From the IMG/VR virus record IMGVR_UViG_3300042516_000180, positions 1 to 35,568 of that record: 35,568 bases of DNA; one strand, given 5' to 3'. Made by a program: the position numbers and the translations under genes. The notes under the pieces were generated by a model. The model saw nothing but the letters and a program-made list of their open reading frames with translations, was not told the DNA's origin and made no database searches. This document shows positions 3,185 through 21,515 of the stretch, in pieces; positions within the stretch are counted from its first letter, which is position 1, and each line of letters begins with the position of its first letter. This DNA is from a virus.

Positions 3185-3971
3185 TTATCGTGGTGCGGCA
3201 ATTGAAACAGCTAAAGGCGATGTAGAGGCGGCTAGACTAGCTACTGCGGCTAACCGTGTAAATCAGGTTACGCCTTATGGTGAACTGCGCTATTCTACAA
3301 ACCCTGCTGATGTGGATCAATGGGGCAATCAGATGTGGACTGCTACGCAGACCCTATCCCCATCCCAGCAAAGACTCCTAGACTACCAAAATCAGACCAG
3401 CGAGGGGCTTGGTGAACTTACAGGCACAGGTCTTAACTATGTAAAGGGTATGTTGCAAGACCCGTTTACTACTACCAATTTGCCATCCCTTGGCATTAAT
3501 GCGGGTGAAACATATCAAGACGCTTATATGCGTAGGCTTCAGCCCCAAATTCAGCAGGGGCGTGACCAATTACAGCAACGCCTAGCTAATCAGGGTATTG
3601 ACATTGGTTCGGAAGCGTATGACCGTGCAATGATGCAACAGCAACAGCGTGAGAATGACCTGCTCTTAGGGGCTACTACACAAGGTTTTGGTACTGGTTT
3701 ATCTGCCCGTCAGCAAGGCTTTACCGAAGCGGCTTACCAGCGTAATGAACCACTCAATACCCTAAACGCTGTTCGTACTGGCGCACAGGTTACTAACCCT
3801 AGTTTTGTTAGCGTACCCCAACAGGCAACGACCAAGGGTGCTGACTTGCTGGGTGCGGCAACTGCCGAGGGTAACTACAATACCGCTTCTGCTAATGCTC
3901 AAGCCGCTCAAAACGCAGGTATGACTAGCGGGCTGGTATCGCTTGGTTCTACGGCAATGATGGCATTCTGA
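3147..3971 (+). CDS. Putative ejection (internal virion) protein, first of cluster
   Basis: 274 residues. A Gly/Pro-rich start (GKGGGSAPPPP) is followed by a Gln-rich, largely helical body (YMRRLQPQIQQGRDQLQQRL at about residues 127-146) and an Ala/Gly-rich tail. This matches small ejection proteins such as P22 gp7 and T7-type internal proteins, which leave the head with the DNA and help form a channel in the envelope. The ATG has a good AGGAGAAAG ribosome-binding site inside the previous gene. The gene opens a run of similar Gln/Ala-rich proteins (4693, 5063, 6277). The role is inferred from composition and context. Confidence 0.55.
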   Translation: MGKGGGSAPPPPDYRGAAIETAKGDVEAARLATAANRVNQVTPYGELRYSTNPADVDQWGNQMWTATQTLSPSQQRLLDYQNQTSEGLGELTGTGLNYVKGMLQDPFTTTNLPSLGINAGETYQDAYMRRLQPQIQQGRDQLQQRLANQGIDIGSEAYDRAMMQQQQRENDLLLGATTQGFGTGLSARQQGFTEAAYQRNEPLNTLNAVRTGAQVTNPSFVSVPQQATTKGADLLGAATAEGNYNTASANAQAAQNAGMTSGLVSLGSTAMMAF

Positions 3972-4696
3972 TGCAAGATTTCTTTGACCGCCACGAAAAG
4001 GTCGCTTTGATGTTTTCAGGCGGTAAGGATTCTATTGCTTGCTTGCACTTAATTAAGGATTATTTAGACAAAACAACGGTCGTATGGGTCAATACAGGGG
4101 CTAGTTTCCCTGAGATTGAAGACTTAATGGAAGAAACACTGGCAAAAGTACCGCATTTTCTAGAAATTAAGACAAATCAACCCCAATCCGTTAAGTCTAA
4201 AGGCTATCCCGTAGATGTAGTGCCTGTAAATTACACAGAATTAGGTCAAGCGGTCACAGGCATCAAGGATTTTAAGGTGCGTAGCTACTTTGAGTGCTGT
4301 TCCGAAAACTTTTGGATACCTTGTGATGCTGAAATCCGCAAGTTAGGCATTACGGGCGTGATTCGTGGTCAAAGAAACAGCGAAAAGCACCGTGCGCCTA
4401 TTCAGTCAGGTCATGTCGAGAACGGAATTGAGTATAACTTTCCGATAGAGGCATGGTCAGATAGCGAAGTTATTGACTATCTGCGTAGCAAGGATGTAGT
4501 AATAGACGAAAGGCTGTCAATGTCGCACTCCAGCCTAGATTGCTGGAATTGCACGGCATACATGGCAGAAAGCGCAGATCGTTTTAACTACATTAAAAAG
4601 AACCACCCAACAAAATACGAATCTATTGTCGAAATAGTAAAAAAAATCGATAATGTATTAACAGCAGAAACATCTATTTATAAAGGTTTCCTATGA
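3971..4696 (+). CDS. PAPS-reductase-family protein (adenine nucleotide alpha-hydrolase fold)
   Basis: 241 residues. The ATP-pyrophosphatase loop SGGKDS lies at residues 16-21. Family features follow: VVWVNTGASFPEIE at 37-50, and GVIRGQRNSEKHRAP around 129-143, which resembles the substrate-binding 'G-x-R-x-x-S/E-x-x-R' segment. Cysteines at 109-110 and the pair C191-x-x-C194 echo the CC...CxxC iron-sulphur ligands of APS reductases, with another Cys at 118. The C-terminal ECG(L)H catalytic tail of true CysH is missing. It starts 1 nt into the preceding stop and overlaps the next gene by 4 nt, so it is translationally coupled within the ejection cluster. It may move sulphur or a nucleotide; the substrate is unknown. 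Confidence 0.8.
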   Translation: MQDFFDRHEKVALMFSGGKDSIACLHLIKDYLDKTTVVWVNTGASFPEIEDLMEETLAKVPHFLEIKTNQPQSVKSKGYPVDVVPVNYTELGQAVTGIKDFKVRSYFECCSENFWIPCDAEIRKLGITGVIRGQRNSEKHRAPIQSGHVENGIEYNFPIEAWSDSEVIDYLRSKDVVIDERLSMSHSSLDCWNCTAYMAESADRFNYIKKNHPTKYESIVEIVKKIDNVLTAETSIYKGFL

Positions 4697-10532: not shown

Positions 10533-11059
10533 TGCCTACTATTATTTCAGGTGATGGAACAATCACAGGACTAACCGCTACTGGTATTAGTGCGGTACAG
10601 AATGTAGGCAGAACTAATCTACCTGCTGGTTCTGTTTTACAGGTGGTTAGCACAACAAAAACTGATGCATTTACTACAGCAAGTACAAGTTATGTTGATG
10701 TAACTGATTTTTCAGCAAGTATTACTCCAACAAGTTCAACAAGCAAAATATTAATAATTGTAAATTCGTATATTGGTATTAATAATATTAACGCAAAAAT
10801 AAATTTAGTAAGGGGTTCAACAAACATTGCTCAACCAGCAAGCGGGGCAAATCCATCTAGTGCAATTTTTAGGTCTGGAATACAAATTGCTGGTTCTTTT
10901 AATCTTTCTTTTTTAGATAGTCCCGCAACAACTTCTGCGACAACTTATAAGATACAAATAAAATCAAGCGGTGGAAACACAACTTGCATTAATAGAGCAG
11001 ATGACGATGCAAATAATTCGGGTGTTTCTACAATAACCTTATTGGAGATTGCGGCATGA
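10532..11059 (+). CDS. Tail fibre module, copy B
   Basis: 175 residues. It starts PTIISGDGTITGLTATGISA, a compact fibre N-terminus, and from PAGSVLQVVS to the end is homologous to 8411-9016 (SITPTSS, NLVRGSTNIAQ, FLDSPATTSATTYKIQ, STITLLEIAA). Identity is moderate, so this is an old duplication or an imported allele. It is followed by a paralogue of the small protein that follows copy A, so a two-gene unit is duplicated. Confidence 0.65.
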   Translation: MPTIISGDGTITGLTATGISAVQNVGRTNLPAGSVLQVVSTTKTDAFTTASTSYVDVTDFSASITPTSSTSKILIIVNSYIGINNINAKINLVRGSTNIAQPASGANPSSAIFRSGIQIAGSFNLSFLDSPATTSATTYKIQIKSSGGNTTCINRADDDANNSGVSTITLLEIAA

Positions 11060-14008: not shown

Positions 14009-14287
14009 TTAACGGGCTGTAACTTTAAGGGTAATAACTGCGGTGGTCTTGGTGTGTTTTTCAATTAACTCAGCAGGTACATTCGCTTCTGCGTACACAG
14101 CTTTGTTATCTACGGTCTTGCGCTGGGAGAGGGTTACACAGGCTTTGTAAAAGTTACCCTCGATGTGACCCTCATCCTGCTTGAGTTCGGTCTTGAGTGC
14201 TTCTGCTTGGGCTTCTAGATCAGCGATCTGTGCCAAGAGCATACCTAATTGGTCAACTTTAGTTACTTTGATGTCTACAACTTGCAT
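14009..14287 (-). CDS. Small coiled-coil early protein
   Basis: 92 residues. N-terminal VVDIKVTKVDQLGMLLAQIA leads into a helix rich in Ala/Glu/Lys (ADLEAQAEALKTEL) and a beta-type second half (ACVTLSQRKTVDNKAVYAEA). It is the first gene of the leftward unit driven by the promoter at 14330-14359. It has an AAAGGAG ribosome-binding site and the leader hairpin also found before 17754. Function unknown. Confidence 0.5.
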   Translation of the reverse strand: MQVVDIKVTKVDQLGMLLAQIADLEAQAEALKTELKQDEGHIEGNFYKACVTLSQRKTVDNKAVYAEANVPAELIEKHTKTTAVITLKVTAR

Positions 14288-14306
14288 TTGATTCTCCTTT
14301 TCTATC

Positions 14307-14325
14307 TCACTCCCCGATGGAGTAA
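14307..14325 (-). promoter_or_regulatory. 5' leader hairpin
   Basis: Minus-strand TTACTCC-ATCGG-GGAGTGA forms a 7-bp stem that lies at about the predicted transcript start, directly before AGATAGAAAAGGAG. A hairpin with different bases but the same placement occurs at 17715-17732. It may protect the mRNA 5' end or gate the ribosome-binding site. Confidence 0.5.
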
Positions 14326-14329
14326 TGAC

Positions 14330-14359
14330 AGTATAAGTTAAGTAATCTTAACAATGCAA
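14330..14359 (-). promoter_or_regulatory. Leftward promoter with operator in the spacer
   Basis: On the minus strand, TTGCAT (-35) and TATACT (-10) are 18 nt apart. The spacer holds GTTAAGATTACTTAAC, a perfect 6+6 palindrome (plus-strand 14337-14352). The same operator type is found at 16989, 17023, 17690 and 23811. A repressor bound here would cover the RNA-polymerase site. It drives the 14287-13053 unit. Confidence 0.65.
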
Positions 14360-14475
14360 GGATTATTTATTAGGACAAACCCTAGGTTTTGCAAAAAAAC
14401 ATCAGGGCAGTATTTGGCAGTTACTACGAATAGGGCAGAAAGCCGCAAAATTCCCTAATTACTGCATCCTACTGT

Positions 14476-16726: not shown

Positions 16727-16968
16727 TTTAGATTCCTTGCTAAAAGGTTATTGGTATCTACCAACATATTCCAAAGCATTTGACCCGAATTTGACATACG
16801 GTTAACTGGCGCAAAGCCACAACCATAGCGCAGTAAGTCGATTTGTTCCTTGGAAAGATCAGAGCCGCCCTCTAGTACATCAAAGATTTTTTCTAGCTGA
16901 CCCTGCAATTGAAGTAAGTCATTTGTTTGCGATTCTATTTCACTCATAAGAGTTTCTCCTGTTATCAC
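16723..16968 (-). CDS. Unknown early protein, first gene of leftward operon
   Basis: 81 residues, helical, acidic at the N-terminus (LQGQLEKIFDVLEGGSDLSK near residues 20-39). No recognised motif. It follows the promoter at 16987-17015 with AGGAG about 6 nt upstream of the ATG, so it is the first leftward early product. Confidence 0.5.
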   Translation of the reverse strand: MITGETLMSEIESQTNDLLQLQGQLEKIFDVLEGGSDLSKEQIDLLRYGCGFAPVNRMSNSGQMLWNMLVDTNNLLARNLK

Positions 16969-16986
16969 GGCACATACCGTACAACC

Positions 16987-17015
16987 ATATTAACCTAACT
17001 TAACACAATGTGCAA
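16987..17015 (-). promoter_or_regulatory. Leftward early promoter with operator
   Basis: Minus-strand -35 TTGCAC (17010-17015) and -10 TAATAT (16987-16992) are 17 nt apart. Operator GTTAAGTTAGGTTAAT (plus-strand 16989-17004) overlaps the -10 by 4 nt. The same register is seen at 23809-23837. It drives the 16968-14566 operon and lies back-to-back with the repressor gene. Confidence 0.7.
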
Positions 17016-17022
17016 GAAATAT

Positions 17023-17038
17023 GTTAAGATTACTTACA
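17023..17038 (+). promoter_or_regulatory. Operator abutting the repressor start codon
   Basis: GTTAAGATTACTTACA is close to the perfect palindrome at 14337 (15 leading bases identical to its reverse complement, save the last few). Its last base is the A of ATG 17038. A candidate -10 TAAGAT (17025-17030) with -35 TTAACA-like bases farther upstream would give a start at or near the ATG. This suggests autoregulation and perhaps a leaderless mRNA, as for lambda cI. Confidence 0.5.
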
Positions 17039-17259
17039 TGAACTCAGTCGCTATTATTCGTTTATTGGGTGGGCCAACCAAAGTAGCTAAGATGCTAGGC
17101 ATCAGCGTACCTGCGGTATCCATGTGGCAAAACGGAGATATACCGCATGACAAGCTGGTGATCCTAGCCGCAACCCTTGAGAAACAAAGCCACGGTCTAA
17201 TCACCCGAAAAACTTTATTTCCTGAAACCTATAAATTAATTTGGCCTGAATTAATTTAA
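17038..17259 (+). CDS. Cro/YdaS-type HTH repressor
   Basis: 73 residues from ATG 17038; an upstream ATG at 17008 would place the operator inside the coding sequence and has no better ribosome-binding site. The helix-turn-helix reads GGPTKVAKMLGISVPAVSMW (residues 11-30), as in P22 Cro and YdaS proteins, with a C-terminal IWPEL tail. It is the only DNA-binding regulator apparent in the genome, sits between divergent promoters, and its likely operator recurs five times. No cI partner, integrase or excisionase is seen, so lysogeny cannot be concluded. Confidence 0.75.
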   Translation: MNSVAIIRLLGGPTKVAKMLGISVPAVSMWQNGDIPHDKLVILAATLEKQSHGLITRKTLFPETYKLIWPELI

Positions 17260-17261
17260 TG

Positions 17262-17405
17262 TATACTTGCTGGTAAGCGGATTGAACCCCGTTAGTAACA
17301 TACCAGCCTAAAGCCCTTGAAGGGTAGTTTTTGAGCATTTTGGAAAGGCTGGCTGGTCTTTTCTAAAGTGGGTTCAACTTAGAAACTACTCTTGAAGGGC
17401 TTTTT
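17262..17405 (+). ncRNA. Structured RNA candidate with alternative terminator stem
   Basis: A -10 like TATACT (17262-17267) precedes a transcript that can fold in two ways. Fold 1: TTGAACCC (17282-17289) with GGGTTCAA (17370-17377), enclosing ACCAGCC (17302-17308) with GGCTGGT (17351-17357). Fold 2: 17310-17330 pairs with 17383-17403 for 21 bp with one G.G mismatch and one G.U, followed by TTTTT. The folds interleave, so they are alternatives or a pseudoknot. The terminator-like end and lack of any ORF argue for an attenuator-type or stand-alone small RNA. Confidence 0.55.
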
Positions 17406-17681
17406 CTATTTCCGCTTCGTACTCCAAACGATATTAAGCACCTAGATGGGTGGCGTGGAATAGAACATGGGCTGGTTTACACCTGACAGCAAGCCCCGTA
17501 GACTTAAGTGGGTACTACACAAGTTACAAGGACAATGGTGATAGACAACCTTGTATCGATTGAACACTACCTTAGGGAGCATTAGTTCGGGATCAACTTC
17601 CTGAATGGATGGGGTGCTATCACCTTTGGGATACCTATGACGAAAAAACAACACTAAGGGTATATCCTAATCAAATACCTG
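17406..17681. other. Remainder of the gene-free region, some pairing, unknown
   Basis: No convincing gene. A 70-codon minus-strand frame (17442-17654) is probably spurious. Perfect pairings are GGTGATAG (17537-17544) with CTATCACC (17617-17624), and ACAAGG (17526-17531) with CCTTGT (17549-17554); they interleave. It may continue the RNA above or be a replication origin or packaging region. I cannot tell. Confidence 0.3.
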
Positions 17682-17710
17682 TTGACATAGTTAAGCTACC
17701 TTAATAAACT
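17682..17710 (+). promoter_or_regulatory. Rightward early promoter with operator
   Basis: TTGACA (17682-17687) and TAAACT (17705-17710) are 17 nt apart. The spacer holds operator GTTAAGCTACCTTAAT (17690-17705). It is the strongest -35 in the genome and would drive the rightward early genes from 17754. Confidence 0.75.
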
Positions 17711-17714
17711 GGTA

Positions 17715-17732
17715 TCACTCAATAACGAGTGA
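17715..17732 (+). promoter_or_regulatory. 5' leader hairpin, second copy
   Basis: TCACTC-AATAAC-GAGTGA forms a perfect 6-bp stem at about +1, followed by GATAGAAAAAGGAG. It matches the leader at 14307-14325 in position and flanks but not in stem sequence. Confidence 0.55.
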
Positions 17733-17753
17733 GATAGAAAAAGGAGCAACAAA

Positions 17754-17915
17754 ATGAAATCAAAAGGTCAAGGCAAAAAAGAATTTGTAGTTATGCAATT
17801 AGATGACTACAAAAATGAGTGGAAAGTTTGGAGCGTTCCAGTAACCATCAAACAAGCATATTTTATTCTTGCTCGCAAAAATCCACAGTACTACAAAATT
17901 TCAGAAATCAAATAA
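17754..17915 (+). CDS. Small early protein (53 aa)
   Basis: 53 residues with an AAGGAG ribosome-binding site 8 nt from the ATG. Basic and aromatic (KNEWKVWSVPVTIKQAYFIL, then RKNPQYYKIS). First gene behind the strongest early promoter, so probably one of the first phage proteins made; such genes often redirect the host. No family recognised. Confidence 0.6.
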   Translation: MKSKGQGKKEFVVMQLDDYKNEWKVWSVPVTIKQAYFILARKNPQYYKISEIK

Positions 17916-18921: not shown

Positions 18922-19135
18922 TGACCAGTTTGATTACGACAAAGAATGGGAAGGGATGCCTGAGTTTGTATCCGAAGACCTTAAGTCTATTGCGGCTGTC
19001 ACGGTTAACTTTTTGACCGTAGAAGATATGAACGCATTTAGCGAACTGGTCGGCAGACGCATTACTTTTCAGACCAAAAGCATATTGTTCCCCGTAAAAG
19101 AACCCGTAAAGAAAATCTACATCGATGAATCCTAA
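18905..19135 (+). CDS. Phage protein of the EWxGMPEF type
   Basis: 76 residues. DKEWEGMPEFVSEDLKSIAA at about 12-31, then VTVNFLTVEDMNAFSELVGR and a final SILFP motif. This short domain is seen as an appendage of phage nuclease, ParB-like or methylase proteins, and here it is separate. It may act as a protein-protein or DNA module next to the TAGT gene, with which it overlaps by 11 nt. Confidence 0.5.
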   Translation: MNDLFDDQFDYDKEWEGMPEFVSEDLKSIAAVTVNFLTVEDMNAFSELVGRRITFQTKSILFPVKEPVKKIYIDES

Positions 19136-19955
19136 ACACCCTGTCTACATTATTTCCAAGGGCAGATGGGAAAGCCGCTTAACTAGCAAGTCGCTAGAAA
19201 AGATGGGCGTACCGTACTACATCGCTGTAGAGCCGCAGGAATACGACAACTACGCAGAGGTTATTGACCCAGCCAAGATACTGACTTTGCCGTTTAGTAA
19301 TCATGGCTTTGGTTCTACCCCCGCCCGTAACTGGTGCTGGGATCACTCAATCCAAAACGGACACGCCTACCATTGGATGCTGGATGACAACATCAACGGC
19401 TTTGTACGGCTAAACCGTAATGAGCGTGTACCCGTAGCGTCAGGCACGATATTTAGGGCGGCAGAGGATTTTGTTGAGCGGTACGACAATGTAGCCCAAG
19501 CTGGCTTTGAATACCGATTCTTTGCTGGCGGTAATAGGCGCAAGAAGCCACCGTTTAGGCTAAACAACCGCATCTTTTCCTGTATGTTAATCCGCAATGA
19601 CATACCGTACCGCTGGAGAACCAAGTACAACGAAGACACCATCCTATCGCTGGATTGCTTAGAAGGCGGCTGGTGTACGATCATGTTCCATTGTTTTTTG
19701 CAAAACAAAGCCGCAACACAGACGGTCAAGGGCGGTAACTCAGCCGAGTTTTACGACCACGAAGGTACGCTACCCAAGTCACAGATGTTGGTAGATGAGT
19801 ACCCGCACAGGGCTAAATTGGTGTGGCGTTATGACCGCTGGCATCACGAAGTTAGCTACGATGGATTTGAAAAGAATATGTTGAAAAAGAAGGAAGGGAT
19901 AGTTATTCCCAAGGGCGTAAACAATTACGGAATGAAACTAGTGGAGATAACATGA
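19125..19955 (+). CDS. TAGT-type glycosyltransferase (DNA base modification)
   Basis: 276 residues. A GT-A-like pattern: YIISKGRWESRLTSKSLEKM (8-27), VEPQEYDNYAE, FGSTPARNW (62-70), MLDDNI (85-90, a DxD-like metal site), YNEDT (168-172) and a KGGN near residue 203. This is the signature of phage TET-associated glycosyltransferases, a family proposed to add sugars to modified bases. No TET/JBP oxygenase or thymidylate-type hydroxymethylase is encoded here, so the acceptor is unclear. It could act on a host-made or directly on another substrate. Confidence 0.7.
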   Translation: MNPKHPVYIISKGRWESRLTSKSLEKMGVPYYIAVEPQEYDNYAEVIDPAKILTLPFSNHGFGSTPARNWCWDHSIQNGHAYHWMLDDNINGFVRLNRNERVPVASGTIFRAAEDFVERYDNVAQAGFEYRFFAGGNRRKKPPFRLNNRIFSCMLIRNDIPYRWRTKYNEDTILSLDCLEGGWCTIMFHCFLQNKAATQTVKGGNSAEFYDHEGTLPKSQMLVDEYPHRAKLVWRYDRWHHEVSYDGFEKNMLKKKEGIVIPKGVNNYGMKLVEIT

Positions 19956-21158: not shown

Positions 21159-21515
21159 ATGGAAAACTGTGCGTTATTCCTAGCAACATTACTACACTCA
21201 GCGACCAATACGCATTTTTTCCATTGGTCTACTGATTCTTACGCCAAACACAAAGCACTTGCAAAGTATTACGACAGTATCATTGATTTAACGGATGCTT
21301 TTGCCGAATCCTATATGGGCAAATACGGTAAGTTCACCAGCTTTCCAAGCGTTTACCACCAACCTAAAGACCCAATCCGCTACATGGAGTCATTGCAAAG
21401 CTTTGTAAAAGAAGCCCGCATGGAATTACCTCAAGACAGCGAACTACAAAACATTGTTGATGAGATCGCTGACCTTATAAATGCCACCGCATACAAACTT
21501 AAGTTCTTGAAATAA
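21159..21515 (+). CDS. Dps/ferritin-like small protein (DUF5856-like)
   Basis: 118 residues. LLHSATNTHFFHWSTDSYAK then HKALAKYYDSIIDLTDAFAE (His/Asp/Glu-rich helices, about 11-50) resembles ferritin-like four-helix proteins, and the run is typical of the phage DUF5856 group. Whether it binds metal or DNA is not known. AAGGATTTGT separates it from rusA. Confidence 0.5.
   Translation: MENCALFLATLLHSATNTHFFHWSTDSYAKHKALAKYYDSIIDLTDAFAESYMGKYGKFTSFPSVYHQPKDPIRYMESLQSFVKEARMELPQDSELQNIVDEIADLINATAYKLKFLK

Follow-up and report, generated by a model that had tools for sequence, protein, structure and literature searches.

The closest described systems come from phages, plasmids, and bacteria. The CI RNA of phage P4 is a phage RNA in which short self-complementary segments lie on one transcript and termination takes place before the replication genes (PMC4825925). 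The leader of the pT181 attenuator has interior loops, uses kissing recognition, and adopts either the fold of an intrinsic terminator or an antiterminated one (PMC4878617). In the RNAI/SLI systems of the IncK and IncB/O plasmids, loop and interior-loop nucleotides set self-specificity, and a single change alters compatibility (PMC10724649). GOLLD, ROOL, and OLE are structured RNAs of bacteria or phages, some of which are joined by kissing loops between copies (PMC12286853). RNA-based prophage replication also exists (PMC7157519).

The locus described here belongs to the IMG/VR virus record IMGVR_UViG_3300042516_000180, whose whole stretch of 35,568 bases is referred to as the window. The element occupies positions 17262-17405 of the plus strand and lies outside any gene. 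The sequence suggests that the phage, a freshwater one, produces an RNA of about 130 bases from the interval separating the Cro gene from the early promoter. The window gave 0 matches to Rfam 15 at the gathering score (best sub-threshold MIR844, 21.1 bits against 70, and sok, 18.3 against 59), and neither a tRNA nor a tmRNA was found in it. There is no Rfam riboswitch match, and the unpaired elements are hypervariable codes. No description of the element was found among the open-licence papers searched for phage RNA immunity, kissing RNAs, and structured phage RNAs.

Fold and neighbourhood of the element

The plus strand of the element folds with a minimum free energy of -62.2 kcal/mol, whereas shuffles average -37.0 with an sd of 3.7. 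This corresponds to z -6.9, and 0 of 200 shuffles do as well. The first-pass annotation had described a nested pair of perfect stems of 8 and 7 bp and a near-perfect 21-bp stem ending in a U-run, placed in no gene between the repressor and the early promoter. These stems and their position are confirmed. The 8-bp stem pairs 17282-17289 with 17370-17377 (UUGAACCC/GGGUUCAA), and nested in it is the 7-bp stem 17302-17308/17351-17357 (ACCAGCC/GGCUGGU). Of the 21 positions of the long stem 17310-17330/17383-17403, one is a G-G mismatch and one a G-U pair; the stem extends to 17335/17378 and, above a 7-nt bulge, carries on as a 13-bp stem (17336-17348/17358-17370). The features of the locus, all on the plus strand, are as follows.

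17038-17259, plus strand: Cro-like repressor gene, 73 aa (PF14549 P22_Cro, 34.4 bits against a cut-off of 30.2)
17262-17267, plus strand: TATACT, a -10-like box; TATAAT-like hexamer conserved before the 5′ hairpin
17277-17292, plus strand: 5′ hairpin (P2a), stem GCGG 17277-17280 with CCGU 17289-17292, 8-nt loop 17281-17288; paired in 100% of cells
17282-17288, plus strand: K1 recognition loop UUGAACC, the last seven loop bases; pairs with K1′
17302-17308, plus strand: K2 strand ACCAGCC, end of the linker; pairs with K2′ of the tip loop
17310-17335, plus strand: P4 long stem, 5′ arm, 26 positions, pairs with 17378-17403 (from the fold; seven top pairs aligned)
17336-17348, plus strand: P5 upper stem, 5′ arm, pairs with 17358-17370 (fold and alignment)
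17349-17357, plus strand: 9-nt tip loop with K2′ GGCUGGU at 17351-17357 (fold and linker complementarity)
17358-17370, plus strand: P5 upper stem, 3′ arm (fold and alignment)
17371-17377, plus strand: K1′ bulge GGUUCAA, exactly 7 nt, on the 3′ side of P4/P5; complement of K1
17378-17403, plus strand: P4 long stem, 3′ arm (fold and alignment)
17401-17405, plus strand: U-run closing the terminator-like hairpin (from the sequence); T17401-17403 are also paired at the foot of P4
17406-17640, plus strand: swappable RNA module, "domain 2", extent approximate; differs among relatives with a near-identical upstream RNA
17682-17710, plus strand: early promoter TTGACA-17-TAAACT with an operator-like palindrome at 17691 (sequence scan)

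As in an intrinsic terminator, the stable hairpin at 17310-17403 runs directly into a U-run at 17401-17405. K1, K1′, K2, and K2′ are all unpaired in the stable fold and lie outside the stem bases of the terminator hairpin. When both strands of the whole window were scanned, 14 candidates with a long hairpin and a U-run emerged, and the only one whose bulge matches the upstream 50 nt over at least 7 bp is the element itself. The hairpin GCUGGUA/UACCAGC of the window's minimum-energy fold was discarded; it is not kept in relatives and probably lies upstream of the start site. By eye, and in the window's superfamily only, GCRGA (17277-17281) could pair with UCYGC (17409-17416) just past the U-run, forming a closing helix P1 which, if real, would need read-through RNA.

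In 49 of 52 RNAs, the 5′ hairpin is preceded at a distance of 0-9 nt by a TATAAT-like hexamer with at most one mismatch (TATACT in 47), compared with 15 of 1020 control windows. No -35 element matching the TATACT box at standard spacing was recognised. Despite this, the conserved box suggests that the RNA has its own start near 17274-17277 and its terminator at 17405. No minus-strand promoter appeared at 16950-17800 in a scan for consensus promoters.

The early promoter region is duplicated, with copies at 14287-14391 on the minus strand and 17649-17753 on the plus strand that are 73% identical. Operator-like palindromes of the form TTAAG-N-CTTA occur at 14338, 17024, and 17691 and are probably Cro sites. 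Elsewhere the window carries a TET-associated glycosyltransferase gene (19125-19955; PF20691, E 6.6e-42), which suggests modified DNA bases, together with genes resembling a phosphoadenosine phosphosulfate reductase (phrog_424) and a starvation-inducible regulator (phrog_858) at 3971-4696 and 21159-21515.

Covariation and matched variation of the codes

Relatives were collected by an exact 24-base search, which returned 37 viral loci whose P5 is identical by construction, by a second exact pattern, whose 24 loci all fell within the first 37, and by two Cro protein searches among viral contigs, which found 284 and 536 relatives; 80 loci were kept from each (160 kept). Two exact patterns searched for in genome contigs gave no bacterial or prophage copy.

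In an alignment of 49 distinct sequences, covering 31 pairs of the 5′ hairpin, K1, the top of P4, and P5, 99.6% of cells are paired and 217 double-sided changes are counted, which, as the sequences are related, are inflated by kinship and are not independent events. The covariation score is 0.466 against 0.173 in shuffles, made without correction for kinship, and at most 0.083 when the partner is slid; sliding by one to three columns lowers pairing to 52% or less. The seven top pairs of P4 are formed in 100% of cells, two of them with double changes, while 8 of the 13 P5 pairs show double-sided changes and 99.4% of P5 cells are paired. K1/K1′ taken alone reaches the same 99.4%, with 95 double-sided and no one-sided changes and a covariation score of 0.774 against 0.202 shuffled. 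A single K1 position reads CG in 21 sequences, AU in 15, GC in 10, and UA in 3. The 5′ hairpin stem occurs in the 52 RNAs as GCGG/CUGC, GCAG/CUGC, GCGG/CCGU, and GCAG/CUGU, and never as GCAG/CCG. The first-pass annotation had proposed conservation and covariation as a check, and both sets of helices are indeed kept in relatives with compensatory change, the stems not being broken.

Near-fixed G-U pairs, for example at two positions with GU in 49/49 and 44/49 sequences, indicate that the selected molecule is plus-strand RNA and not DNA. It is very improbable that the element is no more than an intrinsic terminator for cro whose complementarities arose by chance, or that it works at the DNA level as a cruciform or origin: its position just after cro and its U5 end would suit the former, but the covariation already contradicts both, and the near-fixed G-U pairs and an own -10-like box in 49/52 RNAs also speak against them.

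The K1 loop exists in 16 versions among the 52 distinct RNAs of the superfamily. A script found perfect seven-base pairing of K1 with K1′ in 48 of the 52. The exceptions are L026, which is perfect once the register is shifted, L087, with one G-U pair, and L104 and L119, each with a single mismatch. In another set, wherever loop and bulge were both readable, each distinct RNA carried a K1′ that is the reverse complement of its K1, again with L026 in its shifted register. The second complementarity, K2, joins the linker and the tip loop by at least 6 bp in 42/42 distinct pairs against 359/4200 shuffles, and was seen in one superfamily only.

The paired codes are hypervariable. Mean pairwise difference is 0.398 for K1, 0.396 for K1′, and 0.410 for the tip loop, compared with 0.119 for the 5′ arm of P4 and 0.22-0.24 for P5, whose identity within the first 37 loci is partly forced by the exact-match search behind them. 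Among 72 pairs of RNAs that have at most three differences in their other 83-88 bases, K1 differs in 40, and K1′ has changed with it every time; in one close pair, six of the seven K1 positions differ. Several of these code-differing pairs have Cro flanks that are 94-98% identical, and some also share downstream flanks at 99.5% identity. Other close pairs share the RNA but not the flanks, which implies that the element also moves by recombination. The larger finding at the locus is a phage RNA architecture that is conserved while its self-matching code changes fast; the hypervariable matched code was missed in the first-pass annotation.

A code that is hypervariable and yet matched points to recognition between RNA copies. 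Fast compensatory drift combined with recombination, and no role in trans, could also be a source of the variation. Targets elsewhere were not apparent: in 8 genomes or loci, sites for an RNA's own K1 were no commoner than sites for other codes. The plus strand of the window has one copy of UUGAACCC and two of its complement GGGUUCAA, the second of these at 10813, 6.5 kb away.

Relatives with the same plan and the downstream module

Downstream of Cro, more distant phages carry RNAs that have no visible sequence similarity to the element and share its plan, consisting of a 5′ hairpin, a long stem whose bulge is complementary to the 5′ loop, and a U-run. Examples are MW202674, a named phage with the K1 loop UUGGCGG, and the loci L051, L082, L106, L113, L118, L130, L137, and L147. 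An automatic parse gave K1 pairing of at least 7 Watson-Crick bp in 58/68 distinct hairpins against 32/3400 shuffles; the ten without K1 are, by eye, mostly coding-sequence hairpins, L117 being a parsing failure and L197 a case in which the wrong U-run was scored. A looser architecture detector, requiring P4 and then at least four T, was positive at 94 of 153 Cro loci and negative at 59, after 8 loci had been dropped as too short; its null is looser (333/6500), and some of its scored matches are K2 rather than K1. Two of the negatives (L107 and L185) have the RNA by eye, and in most others cro is followed by protein genes or by a Betaproteobacteria-1-like RNA that lacks the leader. Whole-record scans found a long hairpin combined with a U-run and at least 7 bp of K1 pairing only at the window site and at its counterpart in MW202674. 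No site passed the architecture scan in phage P4 or HTVC010P, or in the three stretches scanned (L041, L042, and L044) from Acinetobacter and Bordetella phages and MW202520 with related Cro. At three loci (L138-L140), a tRNA-like sequence with CCA is seen by eye between cro and the RNA, just upstream of the latter. In MW202674, minus-strand hypothetical proteins are annotated across the RNA region (L008 3692-4188) and are probably spurious.

What follows the terminator differs among relatives. Downstream motifs in the 52 RNAs fall into classes W (17), C (16), B (10), and D (8), with one other; one of the classes corresponds to Rfam RF02932. The Betaproteobacteria-1 RNA (RF02932), for which the open-licence literature gave no match, lies directly downstream of the RNA in 15 of 35 loci scanned. 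In the window, RF02932 matches neither the element nor its own downstream module, which is of a type 73.6% identical over 108 nt to MW202674. In L118 and L147, the terminator hairpin stands just before a DUF1376 gene. By eye, six loci (L150, L151, L189, L191, L202, and L203) seem to have a Betaproteobacteria-1-like RNA right after cro and no kissing RNA, as would be expected if the latter is an optional leader.

The replication genes nearby (phrog_270) and a variation resembling that of plasmid incompatibility loops bring to mind a phage kept as a plasmid, in which the RNA and the RNA downstream of it would together form an RNA-based control of replication, copy number, and incompatibility. 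RNA-based prophage replication has a precedent (PMC7157519). Such a role is nonetheless quite improbable here, as there is no parABS, and a comparison of 20 window proteins with PHROGs gave no integrase and only one weak ParB-like match.

Fold competition, possible function, and known systems

The first-pass annotation had called the two sets of helices mutually exclusive and had read terminator/antiterminator logic into them. The 8- and 7-bp helices share no bases with the long lower stem. Since the alternative helices are built solely from bases that lie in loops in the stable fold, a simple base-competing terminator/antiterminator was rejected. What stands is a clash by topology within one molecule, together with the terminator-like hairpin and U-run; a co-transcriptional switch in cis is possible. 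The distance to the foot of P4 is 0-5 nt for K2 and can be as short as 3 nt for K1 (3-14 nt in many families, whose stems have 19-26 bp), with their partners about 20 bp or more up the stem. From A-form dimensions, K2-K2′ pairing, and in short-linker families K1-K1′ pairing too, would be sterically incompatible with a complete P4 in the same molecule. If so, either the switch is a kinetic one in cis, or the codes pair between molecules.

In a purely cis-acting switch, the nested K1 and K2 helices would form first during transcription and delay the terminator, so that read-through is tuned within a single molecule, perhaps by transcription speed or by a protein, and the code itself would be neutral with compensation. 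The steric argument and the order of transcription, which puts K2 and K1 ahead of P4, are in keeping with this. Forcing the K1 and K2 helices, however, makes the fold 17.5 kcal/mol worse on average (range 9-27 in 52 RNAs), the K strands coincide exactly with loops of the stable fold, and the 40 of 72 close pairs that differ in their code are left unexplained. This switch is a plausible but rather unlikely account of the element. Recognition between molecules is favoured instead, on the grounds that the stable fold presents precisely the K strands as its loops, that K1 has no other conspicuous target in the 8 genomes or loci, and that the code diversifies yet stays matched to itself.

Contacts between molecules need not imply attenuation. 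The RNA could be a structural one that dimerises or oligomerises through K1-K1′ and K2-K2′, assembly being its function. The stable fold leaves all four K elements exposed, pairing in trans would fit the short-linker families better than pairing in cis, and phage RNAs with conserved kissing contacts between copies are described (PMC12286853). The RNA is small, however, ends in a terminator U-run, and is an optional module placed ahead of a second RNA or of a DUF1376 gene, and a fast-changing code is not what simple assembly predicts; an assembly role is held to be unlikely.

The fold, with its 5′ hairpin, P4 and 7-nt bulge, P5, and U-run, the K1 and K2 complementarities, and their fast, matched variation are features of the sequences themselves, and the structure is well supported. 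The function preferred here, with somewhat less than even confidence, is that of an intrinsic-terminator RNA with a self-specific kissing code, which would act on the downstream RNA or the replication region as an attenuator or immunity-like regulator. The codes would allow recognition between RNA copies that carry the same code. In a nascent transcript with K1 and K2 paired in cis, P4 would be delayed and read-through would follow. Same-code RNAs already present may occupy K1′ and K2′ (or K1 and K2) in trans, allowing P4 to form and transcription to stop before the downstream RNA or replication gene. The outcome would be a self-specific attenuation amounting to RNA-based immunity, incompatibility, or dosage control. 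This self-specific attenuation is favoured by the covariation, the shared architecture in unrelated sequences, the hypervariability of the code, and the unpaired state of all K strands in the stable fold, as well as by the lack of an excess of K1 sites elsewhere, the placing of a terminator before a module or DUF1376 gene, and the existence of known systems with a like logic. The missing -35 at the TATACT box, the 59 of 153 negative Cro loci, and the restriction of K2 to one superfamily weigh against it.

A broader proposal is somewhat more doubtful. Such RNAs may form a widespread phage class with a hypervariable self-complementary code (K1/K1′ and, in one superfamily, also K2/K2′), recognised only by the same code, and may provide superinfection immunity or incompatibility by RNA only, through termination of the transcripts of an incoming sister; on a constant scaffold, diversifying selection would favour codes that are newly arisen or exchanged. 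The family stands outside Rfam and belongs to abundant uncultured freshwater phages, and its strict, quickly changing self-complementarity is an unusual signature. If the codes act between molecules, they would constitute a phage self/non-self system made of RNA only and a natural library of orthogonal attenuators, with 15 seven-nt K1 codes on one scaffold. The known RNA of unknown function Betaproteobacteria-1 is now found downstream of a presumed regulatory leader, which gives a handle on its role.

Among known systems, the CI RNA of phage P4 immunity shares the logic of self-complementary segments and termination (PMC4825925), but it is a processed piece with two partner sites (seqA and seqC), whereas here each code has one partner and the terminator stem has 26 positions. 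The pT181-type attenuator is similar in its terminator-or-antiterminated leader and its kissing recognition (PMC4878617); pT181 is, however, regulated by an antisense RNA encoded on the opposite strand, whereas in the phage element a single RNA strand carries both complementary halves of each code. RNAI/SLI of the I-complex plasmids resembles the element in that loop and interior-loop nucleotides set self-specificity, but it is a plasmid antisense pair controlling rep translation, and the available excerpt of PMC10724649 describes no 26-position terminator with a matched bulge. GOLLD, ROOL, and OLE are likewise structured phage or bacterial RNAs, some of them joined by kissing between copies, but they are several hundred nt long and form cages or dimers (PMC12286853), in contrast to about 130 nt with a terminator here. 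The Betaproteobacteria-1 RNA (RF02932) adjoins the RNA downstream in many relatives, but is a separate module. By the features tested, the RNA belongs to none of the systems compared.
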